The notes under the pieces are model-generated. The model made no database searches, was not told where the DNA came from, and was given only the letters and a program-made list of their open reading frames with translations. This document shows, piece by piece, positions 3,997 to 46,184 of a DNA stretch of 64,000 nucleotides; positions within the stretch are counted from its first letter, which is position 1, and every line of letters starts with the position of its first letter. The position numbers were made by a program, and so were the translations under genes. The stretch comes from Sneathiella sp. P13V-1 (lineage in GTDB: Bacteria > Pseudomonadota > Alphaproteobacteria > Sneathiellales > Sneathiellaceae), in the NCBI RefSeq assembly GCF_015143595.1, contig NZ_WYEU01000001.1:744001-808000 (forward strand), read 5' to 3'.

Positions 3997-4003
3997 GTTT
4001 GTA

Positions 4004-5134
4004 TTAGGCCTTCGCGGGATCGAACCAATTCGTTCCAAAAGGAACTGTTCTTTGAAGTCGTTGAGTACCTCTCAGCCCACCAACGGACATTTGCTGTACT
4101 TCTTCATTGTCCCAAAAGGTTTCAACACGATTTCTGAGGAAATTTTCAGGATCATCCAGTGCCTTGATATTCACTATATTCTTACAGACCCCAACAAAAA
4201 TTGCTTCTAGAGAACGTAAGGAAAATCGCTGACCTTTACCTTTTTTATCTCCAGCGAATGGAAATAATGCTCTATCCCCAAAACATGCATGCAATATTTC
4301 AATTGTCTCTGTAATATTGAGAATGACATCATCAATGTCTTCTTTTTCAAAGACATCAATTATTTGTGTATTCAGAAATTCTTGGACATCGCTTTTATTG
4401 TCATAGTCACGATAAGAATGAACCATAATCCTTGTAAGATAATCTAAATCCTTTTGCCCCTTCACTGAGTCTTCATTTATTGAAGTCATTGCTCTCAGTT
4501 TTTCATTAGATGCCAGCTCTCTTACTTTCCTCATTGCTTCAGGATTCGCCATAACCATCGCACACGACCTAACCTCTTGTTCGTTGGCATAAGCTCCTCC
4601 TCTATTCAGCCGCTGGAAAAGATGGAATTTTGTTTCTGAATCACTTGGCTGCTGCAAAATTTGAACATCAAACCTAGATCTCCGAAGCATGAGCTGAAGT
4701 GATTTATCCAATGGCACCTGGCTATTTATATCAAGGTTTTCGATATCTTCAGATCTCTCCCAGACAGTGTTTTGCAATGAAGGTAGGTAAGTTGTACCGG
4801 TCAGTACGGATCTTGGTAGTTTTTCATCCGTGTCTGGCTTTCTCAAGGAACCATGAAACTCTAATATTGTTGATAATCTCTGTAATCCATCCACTAATTC
4901 CCAAGTACCTTCTTCATTTTCAAAAACAAATATCGGAGGAATTGGGATATTAATTAGAATAGATTCAATCAAACTTGATTTTTTCTCTATTGACCATCTA
5001 AATAGTCTTTGAAAATCAGGCTGAATGTTGAGCTCACCTTCATTATACATCGAAATAATTTCGCCAATCGATAGAGCCAAATTCTCTGTTTTTACTGTTT
5101 GACGTGTTTTTTCTATTTCGTTTTTTAAGGTCAT
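4004..5134 (-). CDS. DUF262 domain protein paired with a HEPN nuclease
   Basis: A 376-residue protein with the DUF262 fold typical of GmrS and other ParB-like NTP-using proteins. The motifs IQPDFQR (about residues 37-43) and DGLQRLSTI (about 83-91, corresponding to the DGQQR box) are clear. It lacks the C-terminal DUF1524 HNH nuclease half found in full GmrSD enzymes; the nuclease role may instead be supplied by the HEPN protein encoded 7 bp downstream. Family knowledge: DUF262 proteins act in modified-DNA restriction and other defence systems. The strong AT bias and the location next to a tRNA remnant point to acquired DNA. Confidence 0.8.
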   Translation of the reverse strand: MTLKNEIEKTRQTVKTENLALSIGEIISMYNEGELNIQPDFQRLFRWSIEKKSSLIESILINIPIPPIFVFENEEGTWELVDGLQRLSTILEFHGSLRKPDTDEKLPRSVLTGTTYLPSLQNTVWERSEDIENLDINSQVPLDKSLQLMLRRSRFDVQILQQPSDSETKFHLFQRLNRGGAYANEQEVRSCAMVMANPEAMRKVRELASNEKLRAMTSINEDSVKGQKDLDYLTRIMVHSYRDYDNKSDVQEFLNTQIIDVFEKEDIDDVILNITETIEILHACFGDRALFPFAGDKKGKGQRFSLRSLEAIFVGVCKNIVNIKALDDPENFLRNRVETFWDNEEVQQMSVGGLRGTQRLQRTVPFGTNWFDPAKA

Positions 5135-5437
5135 TATCTTACCTACTCAATCCGCCTGATTTTACCCTTTTCTATTATACACACTATTTTATTTAAAAAA
5201 ACCTTAGGTTGATATAAAATTGAAACAATAATATCTCGTCAAGGTTGTTTGTAGAAAATAGCGTATATTCGACTGCTTATTTTAAAAAATAGATAAAACG
5301 TAAGTACCAATTTTTATATTTAAATCTTAAAAGTTTGATCTTTTCTTCATTGGGAGAAGAGCACTAACGGCATCAATCAACAACCTTGAAGAGCGTTTAA
5401 CTCACAATCTTCAAAAATGCTAAGTCATTGGAAAATA
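5135..5437. other. AT-rich intergenic stretch upstream of the DUF262 gene
   Basis: About 300 bp of AT-rich DNA between the DUF262 start and the first tRNA remnant. It presumably carries the promoter of the DUF262-HEPN operon on the minus strand. I see no convincing gene, structured RNA or strong repeat in it. Confidence 0.5.
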
Positions 5438-5502
5438 TGGCGCACCCGACAGGATTTGAACCTGTGACCTCTGCTTTCAGAGATTGTGCTCTATCCAGCT
5501 GA
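5438..5502 (-). pseudogene. Decayed tRNA-Arg 3' fragment
   Basis: Reading the minus strand, this covers the D-arm, anticodon-arm and T-arm regions plus the CCA end of a tRNA-Arg, but lacks the 5' acceptor strand. The anticodon arm no longer pairs, so it is not a working tRNA. The T-arm and the bases next to the CCA end match the copy at 7491 and differ from the intact gene at 46108. It is most likely the scar of an earlier integration at the tRNA gene. Confidence 0.8.
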
Positions 5503-7312: not shown

Positions 7313-7428
7313 TTTATCCTAAAAGATAAATTGTATAGATAATCAATAGAAAATCAAATATTTTATCTTATAAAATAAATTCTACTGGATTTTGGCGAAT
7401 TTTCACATATTTTATCTTTAAAGATAAA
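7313..7428. promoter_or_regulatory. Triple palindromic operator of hipBA
   Basis: Three related 18-bp dyads lie upstream of hipB at 7313-7330 (TTTATCCTAAAAGATAAA), 7361-7378 (TTTATCTTATAAAATAAA) and 7411-7428 (TTTATCTTTAAAGATAAA). The last is a perfect palindrome. Their centres are 48 and 50 bp apart. Spaced TATC/GATA dyads are how HipB-type repressors bind DNA, so these are probably the autoregulatory sites; the first begins 11 bp before the hipB ATG. Confidence 0.75.
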
Positions 7429-7490
7429 TAATATGGCTGCAAAAAGCACCATTTAGAACACACTAAATTTTTGTTTTTAAGGGGAAAATA

Positions 7491-7537
7491 TGGCGCACCC
7501 GACAGGATTTGAACCTGTGACCTCTGCCTTCGGAGGG
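7491..7537 (-). repeat. attL: displaced tRNA-Arg 3' half at the left island end
   Basis: On the minus strand this reproduces the anticodon arm from its 5' stem, the T-arm and the CCA end of tRNA-Arg, then stops abruptly. Bases 7516-7537 are identical to 46133-46154 in the intact tRNA gene, a 22-bp shared core. The T-stem differs from the intact tRNA by paired (compensated) changes, so this is probably the host tRNA end displaced when the island brought in a replacement 3' half. Confidence 0.85.
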
Positions 7538-12971: not shown

Positions 12972-13321
12972 ACTCTTCTCCGTAACAGAATGTGGGTTTT
13001 GGCTTGAGCCGGTTCGAAAGAACAATCCGGCTCAAACCAATACCCACTTGAAGACTCAATGAGCGTCGAACGACGGGATTTGTTTTAGGGATAACTTCCA
13101 TGCCATAGGCATTAGTCCGCCAAGGCCAGAGTATGAGGGGAGTCAAAAACCTTAAAATTAATTATTATTTATCAATGCGTTATATCAATTTCCCAATTAA
13201 ATCCGTAATTATTGGGCCGATTTGCGTGCAGTTTTTTCTGATAAGTCTAAATCTTACTTACCCGCTGATAACGGGCGGTGAAGCTAGTAGCAATCTGCGG
13301 AATTGCATGGAGACGAGAGTA
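12972..13321. promoter_or_regulatory. Divergent promoter region
   Basis: About 350 bp between the small minus-strand operon and the plus-strand recombinase module. It should contain promoters for both directions. I see no strong palindrome; the part after 13150 is AT-rich. Confidence 0.4.
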
Positions 13322-13750
13322 ATGAAAAAGATATTGAGGCGGCAAAATTGGGACGCAAATTTTCGACAATTACAGAAGTATTATGAGATCCACGGGCATA
13401 TTCATGTGCCAAATATAAAACAGTATTCGAGCTTGCGTGCTTGGCGAAGGTATCAAACTGAACGTGCCCGGCAGGACCGCTTGCCTGATGATCAGCGAGA
13501 GAAGCTAAAATCTCTCGGAATGTTCGGTGAAACTCTCGAGGAGAAATGGCTTAGGAATTTTGACAAATTGGTGGCTTTTCACGAAGAACACGATCATTTT
13601 CGTGTTCCGCGGACAGGTGACACCAGTGCGCTCGCTCATTGGCTGCGCCGTCAAAAACAACAGAAAAAGCAAGGTCGCCTGCGCGTGTTCTATGAGCGGA
13701 AACTGCGGAGGTTGGGTGTTCCCTATTTTGAGTATGAGGCACGTCAATAA
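13322..13750 (+). CDS. Helicase-associated (HA) domain repeat protein
   Basis: A 142-residue protein from ATG 13322, which has a GGAG-type site 10 bp upstream; the frame extends further 5' without support. It contains two helicase-associated repeats (residues about 6-62 and 73-138): NW..NF..L..YYEIHGHIHVPN...LRAWRRYQ and KW..NFDKLVAFHEEHDHFRVPR...LAHWLRRQK. Such HA domains are probably nucleic-acid binding and usually occur in long helicases; here they stand alone. The stop codon overlaps the next start (TAATG). It is the first gene of a three-gene recombinase module and may target or assist the giant recombinase. Confidence 0.7.
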   Translation: MKKILRRQNWDANFRQLQKYYEIHGHIHVPNIKQYSSLRAWRRYQTERARQDRLPDDQREKLKSLGMFGETLEEKWLRNFDKLVAFHEEHDHFRVPRTGDTSALAHWLRRQKQQKKQGRLRVFYERKLRRLGVPYFEYEARQ

Positions 13751-14311: not shown

Positions 14312-17300
14312 ATGCAAGCCATCACATGTCTTAAAATTGAAGAGCTGCCGGAGTGTTTTCATCATGCGGTCTATAGTGAGATTTTCGAGGTTTTGACCCG
14401 ATTGGAAAATAGTCATCCTTGGGCAAAAAAGCTAGTCGATGGAGCACGTGATTTTCTCTGTTGGCCAGGGGGTGACGGAGGGGAAGCGGAAAGCCTTGGC
14501 GGTGTATGGCATCACCTAAAAAGCGAGAGAAAAGTTTCTGAAGCTCCTTTTACAGCGATGCTGGCTTTTTTGGGTTCTGAGGTGCAACTGGATCCAAAAA
14601 TTTCCGTTTATCGCGATGTTTATATTTTGCTCTTTTTGGCGTTATTGAAGCGAAAAGAGGCAAACCCTGAATTTAATGCCCTGAGTGCTATTGAAAATGC
14701 GTCAAGCTGTTTAAGGCAACTTACAACGTCCAAATATCAGGATTTGCGTGAAGCATTACCCTGGGAATTTAGTGATTTTTCCGATTTGCTTGCGCAAATG
14801 GAAGGCCTAAAAAAAGCACTAGAAAGTAATGATAAAATTTTTAGTTCTCTCAACCGACTAATGCCGCCACTACGTTATGTAGTGAAGCATTTCATCCCTC
14901 CAAAGAGAGAGAGAAAGGATGCAAGTAAAGGAAGTTCAAAATTAGAGCGAGCAACCGTTAAGACCTCCCCTACGCTGGAAAGCGAAGAGACCCACGAAAC
15001 TGTTGAAGATGTTACTTTTCTTCCTATCAAGTCAGTTGAAGCCGAAGAGCAAAAAGGAGACCCGGCATCTTCTATTCAATATAATCAATTTGAGGGAGGC
15101 GAACCTGACGGCGTTAATCAATCTAATGCGCTAAAACAGAAACAGGCCAGAGGCTTGGTCAACGACATGTCCATGAAGAATTACTTGCCTTCTTGCCATT
15201 GGGACTATTTACATCTGGGTGAGATTTCTGATGGAGTTAGGGAGTTGTGGAATATTGCGACGGGCGATGAGCCAAAAGGGAAAGATCAGCAAATCGCCGC
15301 AACTCTTTGTTGTCTTATCATATTGACAGGCCGGTCTTTTGAGCGTTGCGTTGCAATGTTGGAGGCTGCAGCCGAAGGCAAATTAGAGTGGTTGTTTCGT
15401 GCGGAGAATTTTGAGAATCGTAGTGGTTTTCATGAATTTCTCTATGTTGCAAAAGATGCCCGAATGTTGGGACTGCGGGCAAAAACGGTTCTCCCTAAGC
15501 ATCGTTCTTACGCATCTCAAACAAAAGATAAACCCACCGAGGGCACATGGATGATGCTACCTATTACTTTGTTGCCCGCTGTCCAAATGTTGATTGAGAA
15601 TTATAAAAGCCTTCCCGAAAAAATGGCGGTGGCAAGTTTTCTTAAGGATATTGCACGAAAATCAAATACACGGACCACCATTGCACGACTTACAAACTTG
15701 CTTTTCTCGGTTGTTAAGCAGCAGACGGGTTCGAAACTTATGGCAGGGCATGTTACCGGAAAATCACCACGGCAGATTCCAGCTACTTATTATACTCACC
15801 TTGGTGAGTTGGAGGTTAAAAAGGCACATCAGCGGGCAGTGAATTGCATTTTGGAGGCTGCTTCCTTGCCATTAATGAGAGGAAAGTTTGATCGTAATAA
15901 TAAATTGGGAAGCTTGATTAGAGTTGATGAAAGTAAGCTCTTTGAATCCATTGCCTTGATCCGCGAGGAGGTTATCAAAAAACAACGCCAGAAAACTGTA
16001 TCTCCAGTTGATATACATGGCGACATGGTTGCATATACTTTGTTATTGCTCAATATATGCACTGCTCATCGCCCTGTTTCAACCCCTTTTGATTGCCTGA
16101 ACAATTTTGATTTAGAGCGAGAGCTGGTTTGGATTAGTGATAAAGAAAACCAGTCAAGCCTTGCGGCTCGCACAGTGTATTTGCCTAAAGTGGCAATTGA
16201 GCAGATAAAAAGTTACATCACTCACTTACATGAATTACGCGTTTATCTTAAGCGGTATCAAAATTCCAATATCTGTTGGGTAGAAGAAGCTATTTCTGGA
16301 CTAGGTCCTTTATTTTTTGTTGCAAAGACCAATAAGGTAAGTAGTCCAGAAAAACAAAAATTTGAAATAGCACTTCCCAAGCATTTCGATCTTTATTTTG
16401 CAGACAAAATCCCTCTTCCGCTCAATTGGCCGAGGCATTATTGGGCGACCTATTTGAGGTTTGAAACGTCACTTTCTGAGGAACTGATTGACGCCATGTT
16501 TGGACATGGCGGCTTTGGAGAGGAAGCTCAGGGCTGTTGGTCAGGATTATCTGTGCAAGGTCTCAAAAGTACGAGAGATATTATTTCCGAAAAATTAAGT
16601 GAAGGAACTTTTCCTGTCCTTCCTATTCCTCAAAAAGAACGAGAGAATTTAGCCTTTAACATAAGAAAAAAGGAAGAGGAGGAAAACGAAGACAAGCTCT
16701 ATGGCTCAGTATTGCGCGCTCAGAAAAGAAAAAACGAAATCTTGAGAGTTAGGGCAGAAATTGAAGCAAAATTTAGATCTCATGTTTTCAGTTTAACGTC
16801 GCCTGATAAAAGCATAGTAGAAAAAAACAGCGTGGTTGATTTTCTTGTAAGTTCTATTGATGAAAAAGGATATGGACTTGAACATATTTGGGTAGCAAAA
16901 GAGTGTTTGGCACGCCTTGTTAGCAACTTGAACACGGATCAAAACTTAATGTTGAGAGTGCCAGCAGTCCCTCAGCGCGTTACCCGTTTAAAGCAGACCA
17001 GAACGAGAAACTGGAAGGATAAAGCATGTGAAGTAACCAATCTCAAAATAGAGTTTTTGGCATCCCTAGAAAAGAATGGCAGTATTGATCAATTGACCCC
17101 CCGCCATCGCTTAGGGCTTTGCATCATTTCAGCGGCTTTATTTGGTGCTCTCAATACAGAAGCAGTTTTAGTTGCTCTTGCTAATAAGTTAGCTTCTGAG
17201 GAAATGCCGCTAACGATTACTAATGTATCAAGTGAAGCTCCAAAGTGGTTAGATGCGGCAAAAACATATCTGGATTTATTTTACCATGACGGCAATATCC

Positions 17301-19831
17301 ATTCCATACAGAAAGACGGGCTGCTTACCAGTCACAAAAGATGGCATCCAGATCCTTTGTCTCTTTGTTTTTTACAGGGTTTTTCTAACGGTAGAACATC
17401 TGATCAGCTTAGTTTAGAGCCCAGTTTCAAAAAAGAAAGTCTGAGATCACTGCTTGGTGACACTCTGGAAGCGCTGCAATTAATTGGAAAAGGCAAGAAG
17501 ACTCGCAAGAAAAGACAGTTGGTCAATAGTCTCATTAGGGCCGGTATAGTTGTAGCTGAAGAGCAAGAATGTGTTGATTTGAGCAATGCGTTGGCAGAAT
17601 GCGCAATGGGCCATCAAGTTACTGCCCCTTTGCCGCCAGAATTTTATCGTTTCATATTTGAGGACAAGCAGTGGCCTATCGTTAAGCTTGATCTCCACCA
17701 ATATGGTGCGTTGGATCGGGAAAGAGCTTCGGCTAATCGACGACTCTACAAAGCCAAAAATTTCGGCCGGTTGGAGTACAAAAAATTGCGTAATGCGATT
17801 TCGTCAAAGACAGAGGCCGGAGCCAAAAGATCATCCCATGAAGTGATGCAAAAACTACGTCTACTAGAGACAAAAAACTGGTGCTTGTCGGTCTCAATTA
17901 TGCGGGATTGGGCCTTAAAACTTTTGGCTGAAGATAAGATCAAGGTTACGACGCTCAACACATATATTTCGCGAATTAGTAGCCATTTTAGGGAGATGGA
18001 TGCAACGTGTGATTTGCAAGAGATGGAACCCGAGGAGTTTGAGGCCTGCTATGCAGAAATTATGGAAACGGTCAAAACCGCTGCAAAGAAAAATGATCTT
18101 GCATGGTATGTGAACCGGTTGCACGAATTTTGTGTGGATAAGTATGACTTTCCTCTACTCACAAATAATATTGCAGCTGGCCCAAATTCAATACCGGTAG
18201 TGCGGGCAGGCTACATCAGTCAAAAGCTATATTCTGCAACGCTTGAAAGTATTTTGCGGCAAAATCATTGGTCCGGTGATTTTATTAGATCCATAAGGCT
18301 CTTGGTGATCTTAGCATATCGTACCGGCATGCGTATTGGCGAAATTTTAAAGCTGCAGCTTTCTGATGTGGTAGGCGATAAACAGCAGTTTGTGGTCTTA
18401 CGGCCCAATAGATACGGCAATAACAAGACAAACTCTTCAAAGCGCGTGCTTCCTGTCCAAACCTTATTGTCCAAAGATGAGTTTGGTGAATTTAGGACTT
18501 TATTGCGAAATAGAAATTCAGTCGCAAAATCCAAAAATGAGCTCCTTTTTTGCTCCTCTAACAATGGCTATATTGCATGGAATGCCATTACATTCTCTCG
18601 TATGTTGAGTGATTTGATGCGCAAGCTATCTGGCATTGAAACAATAGTCTTCCACCATTTGCGCCATACGGCTTTATCAAATTTGCAGGTGATTATTGAG
18701 AAAGAGTCTGGCTTAGCGTACTTCCTCACTGGTTTCAGTGAACAAAAACAAAAAGAGATTTATGTTGCCATTTGCGGGAGTGAAAATGCGAAGCTTGGTA
18801 AATATTGGTGTCTTGCTAAAGCCGCGGGGCATGTAAACCCAGAGACTACTTTCCGGCACTATTTACATTTTTCTGAACTGATCAGCTCTTTAAAACTCAA
18901 TCAATCAATTGAAGTTTACAGTCGTAAATTATTGTCGAATATTTCAGGTTTGAGCCTTAATAAACTTACTCGCCTTGCAGGCGAGACAGAGCGAACGATA
19001 CCAAAGCTTCCTGCCCAAATGTTGAAACCCGCATTTTGTGAAAAATTACCGAAATCGGAGGAGATGAGAGTAGTGAGTGAGGCTTATGAGCCGGCTTATC
19101 CAAGCCATGAAGATTTCATGATTGATATGCGCCACTCACATGATGTGGTCTTGCGAATATTACAGCATATTGAAAATGGTCGATCCATTGAAAGGATTGC
19201 TGAAGAGTTTCTCATTGAGACAACTATGATCGAAAATTATGTGGAAAATTGTCACCTAATTCAAAACCAGAATACTCGAGAGGGACGGTCTCGGGTAATG
19301 ATGGAACGAATAGAAAATGATGTTGAGGGACGACGGTTTGCGCCAATTAAACCCAATAAGTCTGGAGTGTTAAAACGAGCTGAACGTCTCATTGACACGA
19401 TGGATCCTGTCTTACGAGAAAAAGGTGGAGAGGCGGAAAAACTAAAGTCTTGCCTGAAACATTACATACAAAACTCCCGTCGCGGTCATACATTCATTAG
19501 TTTTAAAAATTTTGAAGCCCAAGAGCAATTCATTGAATCTCTTAAGCCTTACATAAACCGCAATCGATGGGATAGAGATAATCATACGATTATGGAAGAG
19601 GAGGTCGCCCGAAAAAAAAGGGGCCATAAGATCGATCGAAATTTTAAGGGCCGATACCATCTGACCTTGTGCGAAGATGCTGTAAAGCACAAGAAGCTTA
19701 GCGGTAGAGAAAGGGCGGACGCGCCTAAAGCTGCATCAGAGATCAGATATGCGTTCACTATTTTAGCCATCATATATTTTAACTCTCAAGACCGAGCGAG
19801 CTTGCAAGGCTATTCATCCTTGGTCATGTAA
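14312..19831 (+). CDS. Giant (1839-residue) tyrosine-recombinase-like protein
   Basis: The C-terminal third contains a complete tyrosine recombinase catalytic set: Arg1341 (YRTGMRIGEIL), H-H-L-R at 1448-1451, GH at 1506-1507 and Tyr1517 (TTFRHYLH). Two further segments look like degenerate recombinase domains: residues about 330-500 (LTGRSFERC with Arg341; GH at 479-480; ATYYTH at 491-496) and about 580-750 (AHRPVSTPFDC with Arg587; RHYWATYLRF at 708-717; GHGGFGEE from 731). The linker at about 200-270 is charged; a basic helical region follows the third domain. Phage integrases are usually 350-450 residues, so this is four times normal. It is the third gene of a coupled module. Probably a DNA recombinase of a mobile element; target and mechanism unknown. 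Confidence 0.75.
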   Translation: MQAITCLKIEELPECFHHAVYSEIFEVLTRLENSHPWAKKLVDGARDFLCWPGGDGGEAESLGGVWHHLKSERKVSEAPFTAMLAFLGSEVQLDPKISVYRDVYILLFLALLKRKEANPEFNALSAIENASSCLRQLTTSKYQDLREALPWEFSDFSDLLAQMEGLKKALESNDKIFSSLNRLMPPLRYVVKHFIPPKRERKDASKGSSKLERATVKTSPTLESEETHETVEDVTFLPIKSVEAEEQKGDPASSIQYNQFEGGEPDGVNQSNALKQKQARGLVNDMSMKNYLPSCHWDYLHLGEISDGVRELWNIATGDEPKGKDQQIAATLCCLIILTGRSFERCVAMLEAAAEGKLEWLFRAENFENRSGFHEFLYVAKDARMLGLRAKTVLPKHRSYASQTKDKPTEGTWMMLPITLLPAVQMLIENYKSLPEKMAVASFLKDIARKSNTRTTIARLTNLLFSVVKQQTGSKLMAGHVTGKSPRQIPATYYTHLGELEVKKAHQRAVNCILEAASLPLMRGKFDRNNKLGSLIRVDESKLFESIALIREEVIKKQRQKTVSPVDIHGDMVAYTLLLLNICTAHRPVSTPFDCLNNFDLERELVWISDKENQSSLAARTVYLPKVAIEQIKSYITHLHELRVYLKRYQNSNICWVEEAISGLGPLFFVAKTNKVSSPEKQKFEIALPKHFDLYFADKIPLPLNWPRHYWATYLRFETSLSEELIDAMFGHGGFGEEAQGCWSGLSVQGLKSTRDIISEKLSEGTFPVLPIPQKERENLAFNIRKKEEEENEDKLYGSVLRAQKRKNEILRVRAEIEAKFRSHVFSLTSPDKSIVEKNSVVDFLVSSIDEKGYGLEHIWVAKECLARLVSNLNTDQNLMLRVPAVPQRVTRLKQTRTRNWKDKACEVTNLKIEFLASLEKNGSIDQLTPRHRLGLCIISAALFGALNTEAVLVALANKLASEEMPLTITNVSSEAPKWLDAAKTYLDLFYHDGNIHSIQKDGLLTSHKRWHPDPLSLCFLQGFSNGRTSDQLSLEPSFKKESLRSLLGDTLEALQLIGKGKKTRKKRQLVNSLIRAGIVVAEEQECVDLSNALAECAMGHQVTAPLPPEFYRFIFEDKQWPIVKLDLHQYGALDRERASANRRLYKAKNFGRLEYKKLRNAISSKTEAGAKRSSHEVMQKLRLLETKNWCLSVSIMRDWALKLLAEDKIKVTTLNTYISRISSHFREMDATCDLQEMEPEEFEACYAEIMETVKTAAKKNDLAWYVNRLHEFCVDKYDFPLLTNNIAAGPNSIPVVRAGYISQKLYSATLESILRQNHWSGDFIRSIRLLVILAYRTGMRIGEILKLQLSDVVGDKQQFVVLRPNRYGNNKTNSSKRVLPVQTLLSKDEFGEFRTLLRNRNSVAKSKNELLFCSSNNGYIAWNAITFSRMLSDLMRKLSGIETIVFHHLRHTALSNLQVIIEKESGLAYFLTGFSEQKQKEIYVAICGSENAKLGKYWCLAKAAGHVNPETTFRHYLHFSELISSLKLNQSIEVYSRKLLSNISGLSLNKLTRLAGETERTIPKLPAQMLKPAFCEKLPKSEEMRVVSEAYEPAYPSHEDFMIDMRHSHDVVLRILQHIENGRSIERIAEEFLIETTMIENYVENCHLIQNQNTREGRSRVMMERIENDVEGRRFAPIKPNKSGVLKRAERLIDTMDPVLREKGGEAEKLKSCLKHYIQNSRRGHTFISFKNFEAQEQFIESLKPYINRNRWDRDNHTIMEEEVARKKRGHKIDRNFKGRYHLTLCEDAVKHKKLSGRERADAPKAASEIRYAFTILAIIYFNSQDRASLQGYSSLVM

Positions 19832-19919: not shown

Positions 19920-21104
19920 TCAAGATGAAGGAGAAGGAGGTTCTGAGAAGCTTCGTTGCAGTGTTGCTTCAAAAGCAGAACCGTCTTGCCTGGTTAGATT
20001 TGGCACATATCTGGAATAGACCCTGAATAACATTTCGGTAGTGGAATGACCCATTTGCCGAGCAATCCATTCGGGATTTTCACCAGAAGCAAGCCATAAA
20101 GTGGCCGTCGTATGTCTTGTTTGATATGGCCGTCTTTTTTCAAGATCAAGAAGGCGTAATAGTGGATACCAGACCCTCTTCGTGAAATGAGAGTTATCAA
20201 TTGGTGCTCCTTGAGTGTTGCAAAAGACATACTCGCCGAGATGCCTCGAAGCCTTCTCTTGAATTTTTAAGGCATCAAATACTGGTTGAGACATATCGAT
20301 TGCTCGAAATGACGCATCAGTCTTTGTATCTACCTGTCTACGTTGTACATTCGCCTCCCTGATAAGTATTTGTCGTCTTTTGAAATCAACATACTTCCAT
20401 TTCAAACCGTGAATTTCACTTGTACGCATACCTGTAAAGAAACGCACTTCAAAATAGGCTCGGAAATCTTTCCGCACTGTATCTAAAATGAGTGAAACCT
20501 CTTCGATTGAGAAAGGGTGAATTTCAACGCGAGGCTCTTTGAGCGGTTTGATGTTTCGCCAAGGATTAGTGAATTCAAATCGATCAGACGCTTCAGTTAA
20601 GATCATACGCAGTGGCGTCATCACATGATTGATGCGTGAAGCTGACAAGGTGGTATTCTGTTTCCTCCCTGGTTTCATAGATAGTTGCCTGCGAAATTCC
20701 AGGATATCTGCTTTTTCAATCATCCCAACAGCTTTATCTCCAAAATATGGAATGAGATGGGTGTGAAGGTTGATTACGGAAGTATCAAAATAGGATTGAC
20801 GCCACTCAACTCGTTTTTCTCGAAGCCAGGTTTCGGCAAAGTCAGTGAAAAGCGGCGTACCGCTTTTCTGGTTCTCCAAGAGCCTTGCTCTTTTGGAGAA
20901 TGTTCTAGCCTTTTTGCTGTTTGGAAAGTACTTCGCGTAATCGAGCTGATCTAACAGTATTTCAGCTTCGATTTTGTTAAGGGCTTTCTCCAGTTTTTGT
21001 CGATTAGCCGGTGTGTCCATTAGGTTAGTTTTTTCGCGGCAGCGTTGATTTTGATAACGAAAGTCAAGATAGAGGCGGCCGTTGCGATTTGTAATCGATC
21101 CCAT
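19920..21104 (-). CDS. int: Tyrosine site-specific integrase
   Basis: A 394-residue phage-type integrase. The N-terminus (GSITNRNGRLYLDFRY) is an arm-binding domain, a core-binding SAM-like domain spans about 85-190, and the catalytic domain has FFTGMRTSEIHGL (first Arg), QTRHTTAT (His/Arg box), QMGHSTTEM and the nucleophile in FRVYSRY. The small excisionase-like gene lies 12 bp upstream, the usual int/xis pair. Unlike most island integrases it is more than 12 kb from either attachment site, so it may belong to a nested element or have been moved inward. Its orientation is opposite to that of the giant recombinase. Confidence 0.9.
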   Translation of the reverse strand: MGSITNRNGRLYLDFRYQNQRCREKTNLMDTPANRQKLEKALNKIEAEILLDQLDYAKYFPNSKKARTFSKRARLLENQKSGTPLFTDFAETWLREKRVEWRQSYFDTSVINLHTHLIPYFGDKAVGMIEKADILEFRRQLSMKPGRKQNTTLSASRINHVMTPLRMILTEASDRFEFTNPWRNIKPLKEPRVEIHPFSIEEVSLILDTVRKDFRAYFEVRFFTGMRTSEIHGLKWKYVDFKRRQILIREANVQRRQVDTKTDASFRAIDMSQPVFDALKIQEKASRHLGEYVFCNTQGAPIDNSHFTKRVWYPLLRLLDLEKRRPYQTRHTTATLWLASGENPEWIARQMGHSTTEMLFRVYSRYVPNLTRQDGSAFEATLQRSFSEPPSPSS

Positions 21105-21116
21105 TATCCAACCTCC

Positions 21117-21332
21117 TTAGTTTAAGCCAGCGATGATAGAGGCAGTGGAAGAGTCTTTTTGCATATCCGCTTCAATGGTTTCCCAGATATAGAGGATTTT
21201 GCGACCGCCAAACGGGCGGAAATAATGCACTCCTTCAAAAAGCACTGTGTCTTTAAGGCGCTCTCTAATCGTTCTGGTATCGTAATGAATGCGGTCAGAG
21301 AGTTCTTGGGTTGTAAGGTAAGTTTGAGACAT
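21117..21332 (-). CDS. Excisionase-like DNA-binding protein
   Basis: A 71-residue protein starting at ATG 21332 after a GGAGGGA site; the longer frame to 21413 runs into an inverted repeat and is less likely. It has a MerR/Xis-like winged-helix pattern (YLTTQELSDRIHYDTRTIRE, then a wing at FRPFGGRKILY). It is encoded immediately before the integrase. Family knowledge: such proteins bend attachment-site DNA to direct excision and may repress their own promoter. Confidence 0.7.
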   Translation of the reverse strand: MSQTYLTTQELSDRIHYDTRTIRERLKDTVLFEGVHYFRPFGGRKILYIWETIEADMQKDSSTASIIAGLN

Positions 21333-21384
21333 TGAGTCCCTCCTATTCAAATTTGTGGAAATTTGAAACTCTTTGGAGGGCGCG

Positions 21385-21442
21385 TAACCCTTTGTCCGAA
21401 AGTCGTTTCGCAAAGCATGAATGACTTTCGGACAAAGGGTTA
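21385..21442. repeat. Perfect 20-bp inverted repeat upstream of xis-int
   Basis: Left arm TAACCCTTTGTCCGAAAGTC (21385-21404) and right arm GACTTTCGGACAAAGGGTTA (21423-21442) are exact reverse complements around an 18-base loop. It lies 53 bp upstream of the excisionase start and 61 bp after the stop of the helicase gene, both on the minus strand. No T-run follows in either direction. It could be a recombinase or excisionase site, an operator, or a strong but atypical terminator. Confidence 0.8.
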
Positions 21443-21502: not shown

Positions 21503-24211
21503 TCACCAGTTTGCTTCAAAATGAGAGGAGAGTGACTGTATCTGCTCCGGAATTTCACCTTGGAATGTAATACCCAAATATGTAGCCGCGCGTGTTGCTC
21601 CGACATAGAGATATTTGAAATACAGTTCTGGATGACTATCGATAGTAGTGTCTAAGTCGATGAAGAACACTGCTTCGAACTCAAGGCCTTTAATATGCTC
21701 AAGATTGAATACGCGCACATCTCGGTCGTTGCCTACTACCCTTCCATCTTTACAAGCGATAGCAGATAGATTGATGTCTTCAAGGTGTTTGTTTAACTCA
21801 ACAGCTAACGGCTCTACTTGTTCCTCCGTATTAACCAGAATAGCGATTGTTGTCCCATTTGGTAAGGTCCGGTCAATTTCACGAATTCGTTCAGTTAACC
21901 ATTTAGCAGTTTCGTTATATTCTGAAAGGCCCGATTTCCAAACAGGGGCGACACCTTCTGCGTCAACACGGTCGGGTAAGATGATATCATCTGCGCTTAC
22001 TCCACCAAGCCTTGCAATGTCCTTGGCAAAATTTACGAGATGCCTACTTTGGCGATAAGAAACTGTAACCGACTTATGCTGAATGGGAATACTTAACCAA
22101 TCTAATGCTTCATTAGACTTTACACCCCATGACGTCAGGCGCTGATTTACGTCACCACACATAAAAAAGGATTTCGTAGCCGGGTGAGCAAGCTCAAGCA
22201 TAGCTGCAAGTTGAACTCGAGAAAAATCTGTCGCTTCGTCGACCAATATCTGTGCTCGCTTTAAATACCGAACTTCAGATAGGGGGCCAGTAGTAGGTAA
22301 CTCTTCCCCAACTTTTTCTCTATACGTAGTCAGAAGCACATTTGCTATTTGAAAAGTGGCTAAAACTAGAAGATCAAGCTCTTTCCAGTGGATGTCCGAA
22401 GATTTAGCAGGTGTTGAACTGTACCAGCGGGACACATTGGTGCGCTCACTTCGAAAACGCTTATATTTTTGCGGAATGGCTCGTAAAAAAAGTCGATCTA
22501 GACGTTCAAATTTACGCAATCGACCTTGTTCCTCCAGGAGTGTACCGAGAGTTGCAATGTCATCATCGGAAGGTAATCTTTCGGGCCCGAGCCAAGCAAG
22601 TAGCATGCCATTCTGCGACTTATTTGATATTTTACGTCTGTTTGATTTAGCCTTTGCTAATACTTTTAGCGCGCGTTCAAACCTAGAGAGGGCTTGCTTA
22701 AAACTAACCGGCTGGCCCGCCTGTGGTTCAGCTGTATTCGCATCGTCATCTTCCAATGCAATATCCATATCTTCATCGTCTACAATGTCGTTCGATTCTG
22801 CAGCTAATTGCTTTGAAATCTGTTCCCTGAGAAGATTAGGAAAATTTCTATCAGAATAGGTGATGGTATTTCTGGTACGGGTAAGTATTCGATCAATGTC
22901 TTGACTTCTGGTTTCGATAGCCTCTTGGATTTGAGGAATTAAATCAGAGACGCCGAAGAAAGTGCGGGCGTAAAAATTATGTTTTGAAGAGTTGAGTATC
23001 TTGAGAAGACGCTCGCCAATAAGTTCAAGTTCTTCAACTTCACTTTCCAAAAGCCATTGTGAATCAGTTTTGAGCTCGAGAGCATTAACACTGTCGATGT
23101 AGCTACGAAAATCATCGTACCATGCCGCATCGTCAACGGTATCAGAATTTAAGTACTGTTCATTTTGTTTTTCAATAAATGGGCCCGCTCCTGCACTGGT
23201 GCGCAGAAGCCCAAGGCGCTCTCGACTCAATTCTCGCCGGAAAGTGCCCCAAGTCCGAATATGCTCGTCTGAGGCAACCAATCCTTCACGAGCGAACGCT
23301 TCTTTTACATATTGACGTAGTAGCTCCGTGGGCGAAAAAAGAACCCAACTAGAGATATGATTTAGTCCCGTATCATTTTCAACTAGTCGTGTAAGTCTAG
23401 CCTCTTCCAATGATTCCTCTAAAACTTGAGTATCAGTCTTTTGCCCTAACCTACGAATTAAGGTTGTAGTTTTACCCGTTCCAGGCGGTCCAGAGAGAAA
23501 ACATTGACTATTGATCGGCATGCGAAAAATTTCGTCTTGATGTTGATCTAAAATTGGTTGGTCTCGAAGCCCCATGTGAGTAAGAATAGCTCGGCGTACA
23601 CCAGCGACGACATTTTCATCACTTTCATCTTCCCATAGAGATTCAAGCTCACTCTCATCGATTTCGAGTTTGGGTTCGAGAATTGCACGAAGAGAACCAA
23701 CAGTAAATTGGCCTATATCTCTGATATCGATTTCAGAATTAAAAGAGTCCCAAACACCCTGCTCTTGGCGAGGAGTAAGCTTGGCAGTATTTTCGACCAA
23801 TAGGTCTTGAGAGGAACCTGCAAAAGAGAATATTCCATCATCACCCGCAGCCAATGAAGCAATTCGTCCTAATGGGGAGCGATAGCTGGCTATCGTAAAT
23901 CCTCGGACCGACCTCGGAGTATTACGGGTAATAAAGACGGTATCTTCTCTTCCTTGCTCGTCTGTAAAATGAACACGCGCTATAATAGGTTGCGCCAGTA
24001 ATTCACTAAGATTCAGCGTTTCTGCGTCAGAAATCCTACCTAGGTTGCGGATTTGTTGTTGATTGTTGAAAGTGTTCATATGCGCAAAAGAGCCGGCATT
24101 TCCACGCCTATGTGCAATTAATGCTTTTTCAGCCTCATCAGCAACCTTCTCAATGCAATCAAGGGAACTCGTTGCTATACTCGCAATCGCCACGTCTTTA
24201 TTGTTTTTCAA
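21503..24211 (-). CDS. SF1 (UvrD/Rep-type) DNA helicase-like ATPase
   Basis: About 902 residues if started at TTG 24211, which has a GGGGGA site just before it; an upstream TTG at 24280 would add 23 residues. Walker A is LSGPPGTGKTTTL near residues 240-252, Walker B is AQILVDEATDFSR, followed by MCGDVNQRLTSWG, and a C-terminal UvrD-like motif (EHIKGLEFEAVFFID; YVGATRA). The N-terminal 230 residues are not recognised. It follows sbcD and sbcC on the same strand with a 119-187 bp gap, suggesting a helicase-nuclease set. Acidic stretch near residue 500. Function in defence or repair is inferred from context. Confidence 0.75.
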   Translation of the reverse strand: MKNNKDVAIASIATSSLDCIEKVADEAEKALIAHRRGNAGSFAHMNTFNNQQQIRNLGRISDAETLNLSELLAQPIIARVHFTDEQGREDTVFITRNTPRSVRGFTIASYRSPLGRIASLAAGDDGIFSFAGSSQDLLVENTAKLTPRQEQGVWDSFNSEIDIRDIGQFTVGSLRAILEPKLEIDESELESLWEDESDENVVAGVRRAILTHMGLRDQPILDQHQDEIFRMPINSQCFLSGPPGTGKTTTLIRRLGQKTDTQVLEESLEEARLTRLVENDTGLNHISSWVLFSPTELLRQYVKEAFAREGLVASDEHIRTWGTFRRELSRERLGLLRTSAGAGPFIEKQNEQYLNSDTVDDAAWYDDFRSYIDSVNALELKTDSQWLLESEVEELELIGERLLKILNSSKHNFYARTFFGVSDLIPQIQEAIETRSQDIDRILTRTRNTITYSDRNFPNLLREQISKQLAAESNDIVDDEDMDIALEDDDANTAEPQAGQPVSFKQALSRFERALKVLAKAKSNRRKISNKSQNGMLLAWLGPERLPSDDDIATLGTLLEEQGRLRKFERLDRLFLRAIPQKYKRFRSERTNVSRWYSSTPAKSSDIHWKELDLLVLATFQIANVLLTTYREKVGEELPTTGPLSEVRYLKRAQILVDEATDFSRVQLAAMLELAHPATKSFFMCGDVNQRLTSWGVKSNEALDWLSIPIQHKSVTVSYRQSRHLVNFAKDIARLGGVSADDIILPDRVDAEGVAPVWKSGLSEYNETAKWLTERIREIDRTLPNGTTIAILVNTEEQVEPLAVELNKHLEDINLSAIACKDGRVVGNDRDVRVFNLEHIKGLEFEAVFFIDLDTTIDSHPELYFKYLYVGATRAATYLGITFQGEIPEQIQSLSSHFEANW

Positions 24212-24398
24212 AATATCCCCCAGTTTAGTCTGATGCCAATAATTATTACATATAAACGCTATAATTGAATTACCTTTCAAGCAAAAATACTAAATTACCA
24301 AAAGATCCACACTAGTAAATTTCGAGTTCAATTTTTCAAAGTTTGGACTTCATTTACTTGCATGAACACACGTTACACTTTGAAGATAAACTAACCAA

Positions 24399-27300
24399 CT
24401 AAAGGGCGTTTCTAGTTTCTACTGAGCTACCTCCTATACTCTTTTGGACATAAAACCCGTTAGGGACGGCTTCTTGTACGAGAGGTACATGTGAAATCAA
24501 ACCAACGGAGCGGTTCTGGCTTACAAGGGTGTTAAGTACATTTAGAACTTGGTCCAGAGTGCCTGCGCCGTTTTCTGTGTCCAGACTACCGAAGCCTTCG
24601 TCGATAAAAATGGTGTCCAGTCGAACCTTCCCACTCGAACATTCAACGATATCCGCCAACCCAAGTGCCAGCGCCAGAGCTGCAATAAAAGTCTCGCCGC
24701 CAGACAGCGTTGAAGTCGGGCGCGTCTTTCCTGTGTGAAGGTCGAAGACCTGAATTCCCAAGCCTCTTCGACCACGGCCACCGCCATCGATGTCGCGTTC
24801 GAGCTGATACCGATTGGAGGTCATTGGTCCAAGCCTCAGATTCGCTGCTTCGAGAACTTGATCGAACATCGTGCCGATAGCGAATGTTTCCAGGTCAAGC
24901 TTATATGGATTGTCACCATTTGTTAGTGCCGCTAGGCCGCGCAATGGTCCAGAAGTTTTTTCTTCCTCTTCAAGCATACTTAATGTTTCTGCGAGCTCAT
25001 CGCGTAACTCTGTTAGGTGAGTTAAACCTTGCTGAGCGGCGGCACGCTCGTCAGTCGCTTCATTTAGATTGGCTTGGGCTTGATCCTGTTTTGATCCAAT
25101 TTCTTTGAGATCGGGGCGAACCAAGTCGTGAATTTCGCCAGCTTTCGTTTTGGCGGAATCTTCTGCGTTCTTGAGGTTGCGACGATACTCCTCAATAGTC
25201 TCGCGAACATCCTCTATGCTCTCGATGGCCGGTTTGAGCCTTACAAATTCATCATGTGTTAGGTTTGCTTTTTTTAGCCGTGAAATGAAGGAGTCTTCTG
25301 CTTGTTTCCGGCGTTCAATGCATTCCGTCAAGGCCGTTGTTGCGGCCTTATGTTCCTCACTAGCAATGATGGCACGTTCTCTGGCCTCAGTGGCCGCTTT
25401 CTCTGCTGCTAGTTTGGCATTTTTTCTTTCGTCTAAGGCGCTGGAGGTTTCTTCGGTTTGCTCGGCTAGTGCTTCAGGCGTGCGAAGTTCTTCCGGTACG
25501 CTTGTGAGCATCTCTTCGAGCCGAGCAGAAGCCGAGGCCGATGATTGTCGTTTGCTAGAGCAGTCTTCACGCAATCTCTCTCGTTCATCTTCTAAGCCAG
25601 TTATCTCTTCTGCTAGGCGGTCAATCTCGGCTTCAGCTGTAAGTATGTCTGTTTCGGAGCCGAGGTCTTCCAACTCACTCTCTTCAGATTTGATTTGTGC
25701 GCGGATGTCAGCGGCGGGTTCCTCAGGTTTTGGAAGGTCTGCTAGAGCCTGCTTATGGACTTCTAACGTACTCGTCGCGCCCGCAACATCTTGCTCGGCC
25801 TTTCGGACTACTGCTGTGGCTTTCTCTAAACTTGCCTTTGCCTCGCGAAACGTCTTGTCCAAACCGGCTTGTTCTATAGTCCCGATTGCCAGACTGGGGT
25901 GGTCAGTTGCTCCACATACGGGGCACGGATCTCCGTCTAAGAGTTTTGAGGCGAGGTGAAGTGCTTGGGCTTCCGAGAGATTATTCTCGGCAGTTTTAGA
26001 CTCTTCTTGAGCCTTGCGCTCGCCATTTTGTGCCAATTCAAGGGTGGATGTGAGTGTTTCAAGATTCTCCTCTGAAGTCGTAATGGTGGACTGGGTCTTC
26101 TCATAGGCCTCTGCGGCAGAGAGGGAGTTATTGAGATTGGTCAGGCGAGCGTTGATCCTGGTCCGCTGCGTCTCGGCCTCCCGTGCTGCCTTGAGTACAT
26201 CTGCTTTTTGCCGTTTTTTGTTTTGATGCTCATGTAGTCGTGTTTGAGCGTTTTCGAGTTTCTTTGATGCTTCATTTCCTGCGGCAACTGCCTTGTCAAC
26301 GCTCTTGTTCAACACTTTAGCTCTTTCAAGGGTTTCTTTATGCCGTTCCAGATCGTTAAGCTGCTTAGCCAAATCATTAATTTCGGAGGATCGTTCCTCC
26401 TCTCGTTTCAAAATTTCATCAGCAGAGGTAGCATTTTCCTTTGCACTCGCGTCAGCTAACCGAGCGGTTTCGAGTTTCTTTTCTGCTACTGTGGCGCTGT
26501 TCGTGGCTTCTGTGAACACGCTCTCGCGGTCAAGAAGTAGCTGAGCTTTTTCTGCTTTTTTTACCTGCGCAGCCAACTCGTCCATACTGACTTTGCCTTC
26601 TTGGAGTCCGGCGAGTGTTTCATGAGCATCCTCAGAAGCCTTGAATTTGCCTTCCAATATATGAGCGTCATGCAATGCCTTCTGCGCGCCCGCAAAGGCG
26701 GTGCGTGCGAGCGTTTCCTTCTTTTTAAGATCGGTGAGTTTTTGTTCGGAATCCGAGATTTCCATCACTAAGGCATCAGTGCTTTCGAACCCTTCTGAGA
26801 CTAGTCGACGGGCACATATCTCACGTTCGTCACGGACGCGGCGTTCCACGATTTCTGCATCAGCCTTTAGCTTTTCGGTGAGTTGTCGGTATAGGGACAC
26901 ATCAAATAGGTCACGGAGAATGTCGACGCGTTCCTTGGTCTTGGCGGAGAGGAATTTCTCAAATCGGCCTTGTGGGAGGAGGACGATTTGACGGAATTGC
27001 TCAGATCCGTATCCGAGTAAATCTTCTATGGTTAAGTCGACAGAGCGGACTTTTTTCTCTTCAATGATTTTGCCACGTTGTTCCTTGTTGATTTCGTCAA
27101 GCGCCATACCCGTTGCATCAAAAAGGAAGGCCTCGTGCTTGCTGGTGGTTTCTCCTTCTCCTCGCAGCTTTGGACGAACCTGATCCGGGCGGCGGACAAC
27201 GACAAAACGGCGCTCGCCAATATCGAAGACAAATTCAACTTCGGTTGTAAGGCTTGGATCAGCATGGTCAGACCGAAGAGACGGCGCATCCTGTTCGGAT

Positions 27301-27473
27301 TTTGCAGCCTCTCCAAAAAGCGCAAAAGTCATCGCGCTAAAGATTGTCGATTTGCCAGACCCTGTAGGCCCGTAAATACCAAAAAGACCTGCATTTACAG
27401 CATCACGAAAATCTATGACTTGGCGATTGGAGTAGGGGCCGAGGGCCTGCATAGTTAGGCGTAATGGTCTCAT
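24399..27473 (-). CDS. sbcC: SbcC-like SMC/Rad50-family ATPase
   Basis: A 1024-residue Rad50/SbcC homologue. Walker A (GPTGSGKST) is near residues 35-43, the Q-loop LLPQGRF near 166-172, long coiled coils fill the middle, a zinc-hook CPVC lies near 516, and the C-terminal head has LSGGETF and Walker B TIFIDEGFGSLD. Family knowledge: with SbcD it forms an ATP-gated nuclease that opens hairpins and trims DNA ends. Its ATG overlaps the sbcD stop by 4 bp. The zinc hook and both ATPase halves look intact, so the complex should be functional. Island location suggests an acquired copy, possibly with an antiphage role. Confidence 0.9.
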   Translation of the reverse strand: MRPLRLTMQALGPYSNRQVIDFRDAVNAGLFGIYGPTGSGKSTIFSAMTFALFGEAAKSEQDAPSLRSDHADPSLTTEVEFVFDIGERRFVVVRRPDQVRPKLRGEGETTSKHEAFLFDATGMALDEINKEQRGKIIEEKKVRSVDLTIEDLLGYGSEQFRQIVLLPQGRFEKFLSAKTKERVDILRDLFDVSLYRQLTEKLKADAEIVERRVRDEREICARRLVSEGFESTDALVMEISDSEQKLTDLKKKETLARTAFAGAQKALHDAHILEGKFKASEDAHETLAGLQEGKVSMDELAAQVKKAEKAQLLLDRESVFTEATNSATVAEKKLETARLADASAKENATSADEILKREEERSSEINDLAKQLNDLERHKETLERAKVLNKSVDKAVAAGNEASKKLENAQTRLHEHQNKKRQKADVLKAAREAETQRTRINARLTNLNNSLSAAEAYEKTQSTITTSEENLETLTSTLELAQNGERKAQEESKTAENNLSEAQALHLASKLLDGDPCPVCGATDHPSLAIGTIEQAGLDKTFREAKASLEKATAVVRKAEQDVAGATSTLEVHKQALADLPKPEEPAADIRAQIKSEESELEDLGSETDILTAEAEIDRLAEEITGLEDERERLREDCSSKRQSSASASARLEEMLTSVPEELRTPEALAEQTEETSSALDERKNAKLAAEKAATEARERAIIASEEHKAATTALTECIERRKQAEDSFISRLKKANLTHDEFVRLKPAIESIEDVRETIEEYRRNLKNAEDSAKTKAGEIHDLVRPDLKEIGSKQDQAQANLNEATDERAAAQQGLTHLTELRDELAETLSMLEEEEKTSGPLRGLAALTNGDNPYKLDLETFAIGTMFDQVLEAANLRLGPMTSNRYQLERDIDGGGRGRRGLGIQVFDLHTGKTRPTSTLSGGETFIAALALALGLADIVECSSGKVRLDTIFIDEGFGSLDTENGAGTLDQVLNVLNTLVSQNRSVGLISHVPLVQEAVPNGFYVQKSIGGSSVETRNAL

Positions 27474-28612
27474 GCTGCATCCTCACCATACTGAAGGGCC
27501 TGAAGTGTTTCGGCTATGATGGCTTTCTCGATATCATCTATGGCTTCGGCTCGAACAGTTTGAACAAATTCATCAATGACGTCAGAAGGTTTGGTCACAG
27601 GAGCTATCCTTGATCCGGTCGCCTCTAATTCCAATTTCCTTTCATTCCTTTCGTAGGTTAACTCGCAAACGTTGGGAAATATTTCGCGCAAGCGCTTCAT
27701 GCCATCGATGACTGGAGCATCATCAGTAAGAACGACTTTTATAAAATCTGTTGAAGGTTCCCCGAGAAGCAATTCAGCGTGTATTCCTCGAAGGATGCGA
27801 ACATTACGCATTGGCGTGAGCGGAATTGTTTCAATCTGTGCGACGCCCTCTTTATTGAGATCAATGAAGCTCATGGATTTTTGCGCGTCGGCTTCATCAA
27901 ATCCAAATGCAAGTGGCGATCCTGAATAGCGAATATGATTGCTTCCAACCTTTTGAGGACGGTGAAGATGCCCGAGAGCTACATAATGCGCCCCCTCGAA
28001 GATATCTGTCGGAACTGTTTCGATCCCTCCAACACGGGTTAGGGAGCGCTCGCTTTCGCTGTGTTTTGCACCAGAAACGAAGGCGTGTGCGATTACAACC
28101 CAACGTGCGTCCTTGGGTACATTCGCACGAGCCCTAGCAACCTGTGCTGTCAGGACATCTTCAGGCGTCTGCAGGCTCTCATCTTCAAAGCATTCACGCG
28201 CTGCGTACTCATACGAAAACGGCAAGCCAGAGAATGCTACAGGACCATATTCATCTCTAAGGATGAGGGGTTTTTCTTCAGCACTCACGCCCCCTCGTAT
28301 ATGTGCGCGTGCTTTATCGGTCATGATCGACATAGAAGCAATGCGATCGCCGGAATCATGGTTACCAGCAATCATAACTACAGCCGCTTCGGTATCTTGG
28401 GCAATCCTCTCAAGAAAGCCATTAAACTGACGAACCGCTGTCGCAGGTGGTGAAGCCCGGTCGAAAATGTCGCCAGCTAATATGAGGACATCAATGGAGT
28501 GGTCGGTAACTGCACACGCAATTTGGTCAAGGATTGATCTGTGATCATCTTCTAGTGGAATACCGTTGAATTGACGACCCAAATGCAAATCAGACGTGTG
28601 CAGAATTTTCAT
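27470..28612 (-). CDS. sbcD: SbcD-like Mre11-family nuclease subunit
   Basis: About 380 residues, started at ATG 28612 (MKILHTSDLHLG; a second ATG at 28621 adds three residues). The metallophosphoesterase motifs are all present: DLHLG, AGDIFDR, AGNHDSGD, IAHAFVSG and ALGHLHRPQ. It heads the sbcD-sbcC-helicase operon. The 77-bp gap to the divergent BrxR-type regulator should contain both promoters, so that regulator may control this operon. Confidence 0.9.
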   Translation of the reverse strand: MKILHTSDLHLGRQFNGIPLEDDHRSILDQIACAVTDHSIDVLILAGDIFDRASPPATAVRQFNGFLERIAQDTEAAVVMIAGNHDSGDRIASMSIMTDKARAHIRGGVSAEEKPLILRDEYGPVAFSGLPFSYEYAARECFEDESLQTPEDVLTAQVARARANVPKDARWVVIAHAFVSGAKHSESERSLTRVGGIETVPTDIFEGAHYVALGHLHRPQKVGSNHIRYSGSPLAFGFDEADAQKSMSFIDLNKEGVAQIETIPLTPMRNVRILRGIHAELLLGEPSTDFIKVVLTDDAPVIDGMKRLREIFPNVCELTYERNERKLELEATGSRIAPVTKPSDVIDEFVQTVRAEAIDDIEKAIIAETLQALQYGEDAA

Positions 28613-28689
28613 TATATACATCCATATAGTTATTACACGTATAAAAAATATATAGACATAGCAGTGAGAGTCAAGTTAAGAGTATTCTC
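28613..28689. promoter_or_regulatory. Divergent promoter between sbcD and the BrxR-type regulator
   Basis: A very AT-rich 77-bp gap serving two genes transcribed away from each other. Imperfect dyad symmetry is visible around TTATTACACGTATAA near 28630. Autoregulation by the WYL protein encoded on its right is plausible; the exact site is not certain. Confidence 0.45.
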
Positions 28690-29792: not shown

Positions 29793-30302
29793 ATGAACAA
29801 TAATGTTGAAAAGTTGATTGTAGAACTTCGGCTACTAGTAGGGTTTCTCGGCGAGAAGTCTCAAGGCAATTGGTGGGGCAGCAATTTTATCGGCACCAGC
29901 AGCGAGGCATTTCTAGTGCCTATTTTTTCTCGTACCACGATGTTTGCACGTTATCACGGCGTTTGCGAAGCGGCAATGCTCGTGCATGATGAGCATATTG
30001 GTGTCGGCACCAATTTCCACTTGTATCGTATGCCAGATTCTGTCGAACGTGGAGCCGCTAAGGCGCTTGCCGATAGCGACTTCCAACAACGGCTGAACGA
30101 TGTCTTGGGCAGCAGCGAGGTAGCCCAAACACGGCTTGTTGAGCTGGTAACCACCGACACAAATATTGTCGAGGGCCCAGTTGTATTGGGTACTTACGCT
30201 GATGCCGGTCTGAATCAGCGGTTACATCAGGCTGCTAGTCACTATTTGCGAGCATTTAAAGAGGGTTACAAGTGCTTTCCCTATATGCGGGAGGCACAGT
30301 GA
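29793..30302 (+). CDS. brxE: BrxE-like BREX protein
   Basis: A 169-residue protein at the head of the BREX operon. The N-terminal pattern (ELRLLVGFLGEKSQGNWW, then FLVPIFSRTTMFARYHGVCE) and the VHDEHIGVG block agree with what I know of the BrxE family, whose function is not established. Its stop overlaps the brxA GTG start (GTGA). BrxE was described from type 6 BREX loci, yet the other genes here are of type 1, making its presence notable. Confidence 0.75.
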   Translation: MNNNVEKLIVELRLLVGFLGEKSQGNWWGSNFIGTSSEAFLVPIFSRTTMFARYHGVCEAAMLVHDEHIGVGTNFHLYRMPDSVERGAAKALADSDFQQRLNDVLGSSEVAQTRLVELVTTDTNIVEGPVVLGTYADAGLNQRLHQAASHYLRAFKEGYKCFPYMREAQ

Positions 30303-31637: not shown

Positions 31638-31656
31638 GAACGTTTTAGGAAAAACG

Positions 31657-35304: not shown

Positions 35305-35320
35305 GAAGGTTGCACAGTAA

Positions 35321-41205: not shown

Positions 41206-41206
41206 T

Positions 41207-43729: not shown

Positions 43730-43732
43730 GCT

Positions 43733-46107: not shown

Positions 46108-46184
<77 letters not shown>

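Follow-up and report, generated by a model that had tools for sequence, protein, structure and literature searches.

Genes at the locus

The window, a 64,000-nucleotide stretch of the Sneathiella sp. P13V-1 genome, contains a frame of 1,839 codons that begins with ATG, has no internal stop and encodes a protein homologous to two separate genes in other genomes, here called B and C. It is preceded on the same strand by gene A, which has no Pfam family and no match to tyrosine recombinases (YRs), and by a gene for a protein with two helicase-associated (HA) domains, a similar gene occupying the equivalent place in G006, another genome of the genus (Table 1). Pfam recognizes a single integrase domain in the fused protein (PF00589, residues 1328–1458, E = 3e-15) and is blank over the two earlier segments, B1 and B2.

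The module sits in a lower-G+C part of the window. It belongs to a defence island that reaches to a tRNA-Arg gene and also contains an ordinary arm-type integrase, a helicase gene, genes resembling SbcC and SbcD, and a BREX set. The SbcC-like gene matches LmuB and other defence models, and a GmrSD/DUF262-type protein at 4004–5134 gives a strong match to the NsnA defence model (E = 3e-52). Two copies of the 3' part of tRNA-Arg bracket a HipA/HTH gene pair; just upstream of its HTH gene are three repeats with 49-bp spacing (7313–7434) that are possibly operator sites.

Table 1 Features of the module and its surroundings, in window positions
Feature	Position	Strand	Evidence
Second copy of tRNA-Arg 3' part	5434..5502		84% match; 53-nt direct repeat
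tRNA-Arg 3' half copy (tRNA positions 31-77), candidate attachment-site remnant	7487..7537		92-94% match
205-aa protein, two HA domains	13133..13750	+	PF03457, 7e-24; overlaps gene A
Gene A, 183 aa	13750..14301	+	Same place in G006; small gene also precedes B in plasmid loci
Fused B-C protein, 1839 aa	14312..19831	+	Open frame; homologue of 32% identity over the full length in G006
B1, degenerate YR core, aa ~295-516	15194..15859	+	SSV1 integrase fold match; Y494 in 49/49
Tyr494 of B1	codon 15791-15793	+	Invariant
B2, degenerate YR core, aa ~535-766	15914..16609	+	Xer 4a8e match; residue counts; B1-B2 profile alignment
Possible fourth YR core, degenerate, in the first part of C, aa ~894-1120	16991..17671	+	Weak profile match
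C, core-binding and complete catalytic domain, aa ~1191-1526	17882..18889	+	PF00589; fold matches; catalytic set
Nucleophile Tyr1517 of C	codon 18860-18862	+	Catalytic set kept in homologues
Convergent arm-type tyrosine integrase, 88 bp beyond fused gene	19920..21104	-	PF12167 and PF00589
Small ORF beside integrase, resembling AlpA-type excisionase	21117..21413	-	By eye
UvrD/HelD-like helicase, SbcC- and SbcD-like genes, between integrase and BREX	21503-28621	-	Domain and defence-model matches
BREX set (BrxA, BrxB, BrxC, PglX, DUF262-like gene, PglZ, BrxL), adjoining tRNA-Arg	30272-45820		
Intact tRNA-Arg(CCG)	46108..46184	-	ARAGORN

One complete and two degenerate recombinase cores

We modelled C (1,023 residues, 50 sequences, pLDDT 78) and B (residues 1–823, 49 sequences, pLDDT 75) with AlphaFold2 and compared the predictions with known structures using VIA-align. 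Residues ~375–710 of the C model matched XerA (5hxy, Z 15.7) and XerH (5jjv, Z 15.4); among the matches listed for C, the catalytic core took the places. R1341, H1448, R1451, H1507 and Y1517, named in a sequence-only reading of this locus as the catalytic residues of the third segment, all lie at those positions, and K1372 completes the set. Six residues are invariant in all 50 C homologues (R1341, K1372, R1378, R1451, H1507 and Y1517), with His (30 proteins) or Tyr (19) at position 1448. By both its catalytic fold and its R-K-H/Y-R-H-Y residues, the C part belongs to the tyrosine recombinase superfamily. The start of C weakly resembles B1 alone (E = 0.002 in profile comparison), a hint of a possible fourth core.

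In the predicted model of B, B2 matched the Xer recombinase 4a8e (Z 14.9, 170 residues, rmsd 2.4) and integrases at Z 12–13. The best matches of B1 were SSV1 integrase entries (Z 9.5–10.3), led by the catalytic domain 3vcf, which aligned with residues 298–516 (Z 10.3, 146 residues, rmsd 3.7). Plain Foldseek searches with B gave weak E-values (best 0.1). Profile comparison linked B1 to B2 and B2 to the C core, each at E = 1e-4, and together with the model it places B1 and B2 in the tyrosine recombinase superfamily by their catalytic fold. The chain thus carries three YR folds, of which B1 and B2 are degenerate and C is complete; the sequence-only reading had proposed three such segments, and the predicted structures of the first two do contain the fold.

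Complementary residues in B1 and B2

Neither B1 nor B2 holds a complete catalytic set within one core. Across 49 diverse B proteins only nine columns are invariant. Tyr494 of B1 (49/49) occupies the nucleophile place, the spacing of a conserved Gly plus 11 residues being like that in C, and the Arg and His positions of the pocket are lost from B1. Six of the invariant columns fall in B2 (R587, K611, R620, R708, H709 and H732; 49/49), at or beside pocket positions, and the first pocket His is replaced by Asn (N705, 48/49). The position equivalent to the catalytic Tyr in B2, residue 743, is variable (Phe in 21, Tyr in 11, His in 9 and Met in 4). We considered whether Ser744, directly after it and present in 47/49, could replace the catalytic Tyr of B2, and dropped the idea, as the profile alignment sets 743 opposite Tyr and Ser744 one residue later.

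Relatives at 14–22% identity keep the same residues in 49/49 copies, a pattern that therefore goes beyond chance. The degenerate cores are not random relics, each having kept a different half of the catalytic residues. The sequence-only reading had tentatively given the chain one active and two structural or DNA-binding copies; the count of one complete and two degenerate cores stands, and the role given to the latter may be too simple because the R-K-R-H set of B2 and the Tyr of B1 are invariant.

Flp is a recombinase whose tyrosine is lent in trans. By analogy, B1 might provide Tyr494 for the R-K-N-R-H pocket in B2, which would make B a second catalytic unit; this would refine, and not exclude, a role of the operon in integration. 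Such a composite site would fit a Tyr that alone is invariant in B1 and a pocket that alone is invariant in B2 (49/49 each), as well as the SSV1 integrase entries that are the best fold matches of B1, but 11 of the 49 B2 cores have a Tyr at the aligned position 743 and Asn replaces the first pocket His, and we regard a shared B1/B2 site as doubtful. It is similarly unlikely that the protein is a split-active-site recombinase in which a tyrosine core and an R-K-R-H pocket core stand beside a complete core in one polypeptide. The complementary residue pattern itself is observed; a shared active site is no more than an inference from it.

Relatives, gene order and recurrent fusion

The G006 homologue is full-length (32% identity over query residues 64–1829), with one in-frame TAG within its C part, and in a third genome of the genus (G013) the homologue is split into two genes. 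Plasmids of Acinetobacter, Vibrio, Aeromonas and Ketogulonicigenium carry overlapping genes B (~725–790 aa) and C (~995–1,120 aa) downstream of a small gene A. Most relatives have the genes split, with both degenerate cores in B (~750 aa) and with a C of ~1,000 aa, and the two usually overlap, most commonly by 16 nt. A scan of 84,980 genomes yielded 65 loci, nearly all from Gammaproteobacteria and one from Malonomonas. The order A-B-C is found across Gammaproteobacteria and on one alphaproteobacterial plasmid, with the genes fused in the Malonomonas contig. Viral contigs scanned with single proteins or with the B alignment gave no match, and the C alignment returned two loci; one viral-collection contig carries the fused form. 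Two deep alignments (A1 and A2) proved too diverse to yield search patterns.

Fused forms occupy at least three clades of the B+C tree: one pairing the window with G006 and one of Idiomarinaceae (support 1.0 for each), and one in which Malonomonas groups with the viral contig (0.74). A distant fused homologue of 1,683 aa lies on an A. haemolyticus plasmid. Both degenerate cores share one protein in every relative, split or fused. Because fusions are scattered and the split form is the majority, the sequences suggest that the 1,839-aa chain is a derived fusion of the neighbouring genes B and C.

Transfer RNA fragments and element ends

In 27 loci of chromosomal relatives, a count that takes in partial matches at L038, L050 and L058, the 3' half of a tRNA lies 693–1,018 bp upstream of B, in one orientation throughout. 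The fragments derive from tRNA-Asp(GTC) (13 loci), tRNA-Gly(TCC) (9), tRNA-Gly(GCC) (4) and tRNA-Arg(TCT) (1), are cut in the anticodon arm and run from tRNA position ~28–32 through the CCA end. Chromosomal Acinetobacter copies and several others have no tRNA fragment. In the window, 6.8 and 8.8 kb separate the tRNA-Arg repeats from B, unlike the 0.7–1.0 kb of relatives; the repeats are too distant to assign, and no left end was identified for the window's module.

On Acinetobacter plasmids, four unrelated left flanks join the same terminal sequence ~165–200 bp before gene A (GTAATAACAGAAAACTAAAAAAAAGTGGAAGAAT; one copy reads AATAACGAAAAATCAAAAAAAAGTGGAAGAAT). Chromosomal locus pairs likewise carry the same module with differing flanks. 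A sharp left end is thus present on the Acinetobacter plasmids, and a search of these for a right end and an inverted terminal repeat found neither. No empty site or circle of the A-B-C module was seen.

HipA/HTH and Fic/YhfG toxin cassettes lie upstream of some modules, each starting with a left-end-like sequence in the same orientation (at 5915, 8515 and 10474 in L083, the A. variabilis plasmid NZ_CP104653; also in L120–L122, L115 and L082). Their left flanks differ, which would fit non-autonomous cassettes mobilised by the module. Around position 4000 of the A. seifertii plasmid p5E-022166 (L118), the left flank of the module resembles, by eye, the N6-adenine methylase motif DPTCGSG, and this copy seemingly sits inside an hsdM-like gene.

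A candidate integration module

We propose that the 1,839-aa protein probably serves as recombinase in a site-specific integration module of three genes, A-B-C, in which B and C are fused here. The spacing and orientation of the tRNA fragments, the scarcity of nearby YRs at tRNA-Gly loci and the sharp left end on plasmids argue that the operon most likely recombines the element that carries it, and that an ordinary integrase was added in one clade. Less favourable to this view are the failure to see an empty site or circle, the distant tRNA-Arg repeats and adjacent integrase of the window, the copies with no tRNA fragment, and the position of the G006 module outside the stretch next to tRNA-Arg.

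The operon could instead be a passenger, with a function that may lie in regulation or defence, located distally in tRNA islands that the ordinary arm-type integrase moves. Both the window and the tRNA-Asp clade have related, convergent integrases of this type after C, many relatives have one in the equivalent place, and the islands at tRNA-Arg in the window and in G006 both contain integrases, all of which favours cargo. Against it stand the tRNA-fragment spacing, constant at 0.7–1.0 kb for all four tRNA identities, the sharp ends of plasmid copies without a tRNA, and the tRNA-Gly loci, in most of which we detected no other YR open reading frame within ~8–10 kb rightward, an integrase farther out being possible; on balance we think the passenger explanation improbable. 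In G006, a tRNA-Arg 3' half and its own integrase mark a separate element at the same tRNA, with the module outside it; the window's tRNA-Arg insertion may be the work of either the module or the neighbouring arm-type integrase. Decay of an inactive operon into a pseudogene-like fusion would suit the TAG in the G006 copy and is very unlikely given the open window frame of 1,839 codons, its full complement of catalytic residues and the recurrence of fused forms, residues kept, in several clades.

For the integration module, we infer a division of work among A, B and C. C would cleave and rejoin DNA through Tyr1517, B would supply some of the synapse's subunits, which would bind the core sites and cleave only partly or not at all, and A, together with the HA protein in the window's lineage, would assist DNA binding.

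Comparison with known multi-recombinase systems

SE elements show strand-biased circularisation with a 6-bp footprint. They encode intA-tfp-intB-srap, in which Tfp has the YR fold but not the motif (PMC10214605), and thus resemble A-B-C as an operon that combines active YRs with a YR-fold protein lacking the catalytic set, in Gammaproteobacteria; unlike SE, the family described here has A first in order, only one complete YR and many copies at tRNA targets. Against B and C profiles, the tfp, intB and srap products of the pAQU1 SE copy showed no detectable homology and intA matched through the generic core only; direct kinship was therefore rejected, as the proteins of this element match B or C by the generic YR core at most.

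GInts carry ginABCD, with several YR-type proteins of which one misses part of the motif, a small protein and cargo, and their published insertions lie in a coding gene, at its 5' end (PMC5385486). They share with A-B-C several YR-type proteins, one with an incomplete motif, plus a small protein, but in GInts the integrase genes are three, each separate, with ginD after them, and A-B-C is set apart from them by gene layout alone. RIT elements have three separate recombinase genes (PMC8138268) and, similarly, several YRs acting side by side. Here, A is without a YR match, YR-type genes number two and the B cores are incomplete, the distinction again being one of layout; the suggestion of a single-chain RIT equivalent accordingly fails, since the relatives have two YR-type genes and a small non-YR gene A and not three complete recombinases.

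The Gamma-mobile-trio (GMT; GmtY, GmtZ and GmtX) is also a three-gene YR module of Gammaproteobacteria associated with defence genes, but its order, read from loci, is Y-Z-X and GmtY has ~440 aa. The fused protein gives no hit to the NCBIfam GmtY family NF040693. Profile comparison with Vibrio GMT loci gave weak generic YR similarity only, and kinship was rejected.

We found no description of the A-B-C family in the open-access literature; an earlier one is possible, as subscription papers lay mostly outside this search. Public annotation labels these genes merely 'hypothetical protein', 'integrase' or 'tyrosine-type recombinase', although many are found at tRNA sites and some next to defence systems. 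A-B-C is a variant of the multi-recombinase mobile elements with an unusual distribution of catalytic residues.

RIT, GInt, SE, GMT and Tn554 share the question of what role extra, apparently inactive recombinase-like subunits play. In the A-B-C family, two degenerate cores with complementary invariant residues are held in one chain, to which the active core is joined in some members, and this single-chain arrangement makes stoichiometry and active-site sharing directly testable.
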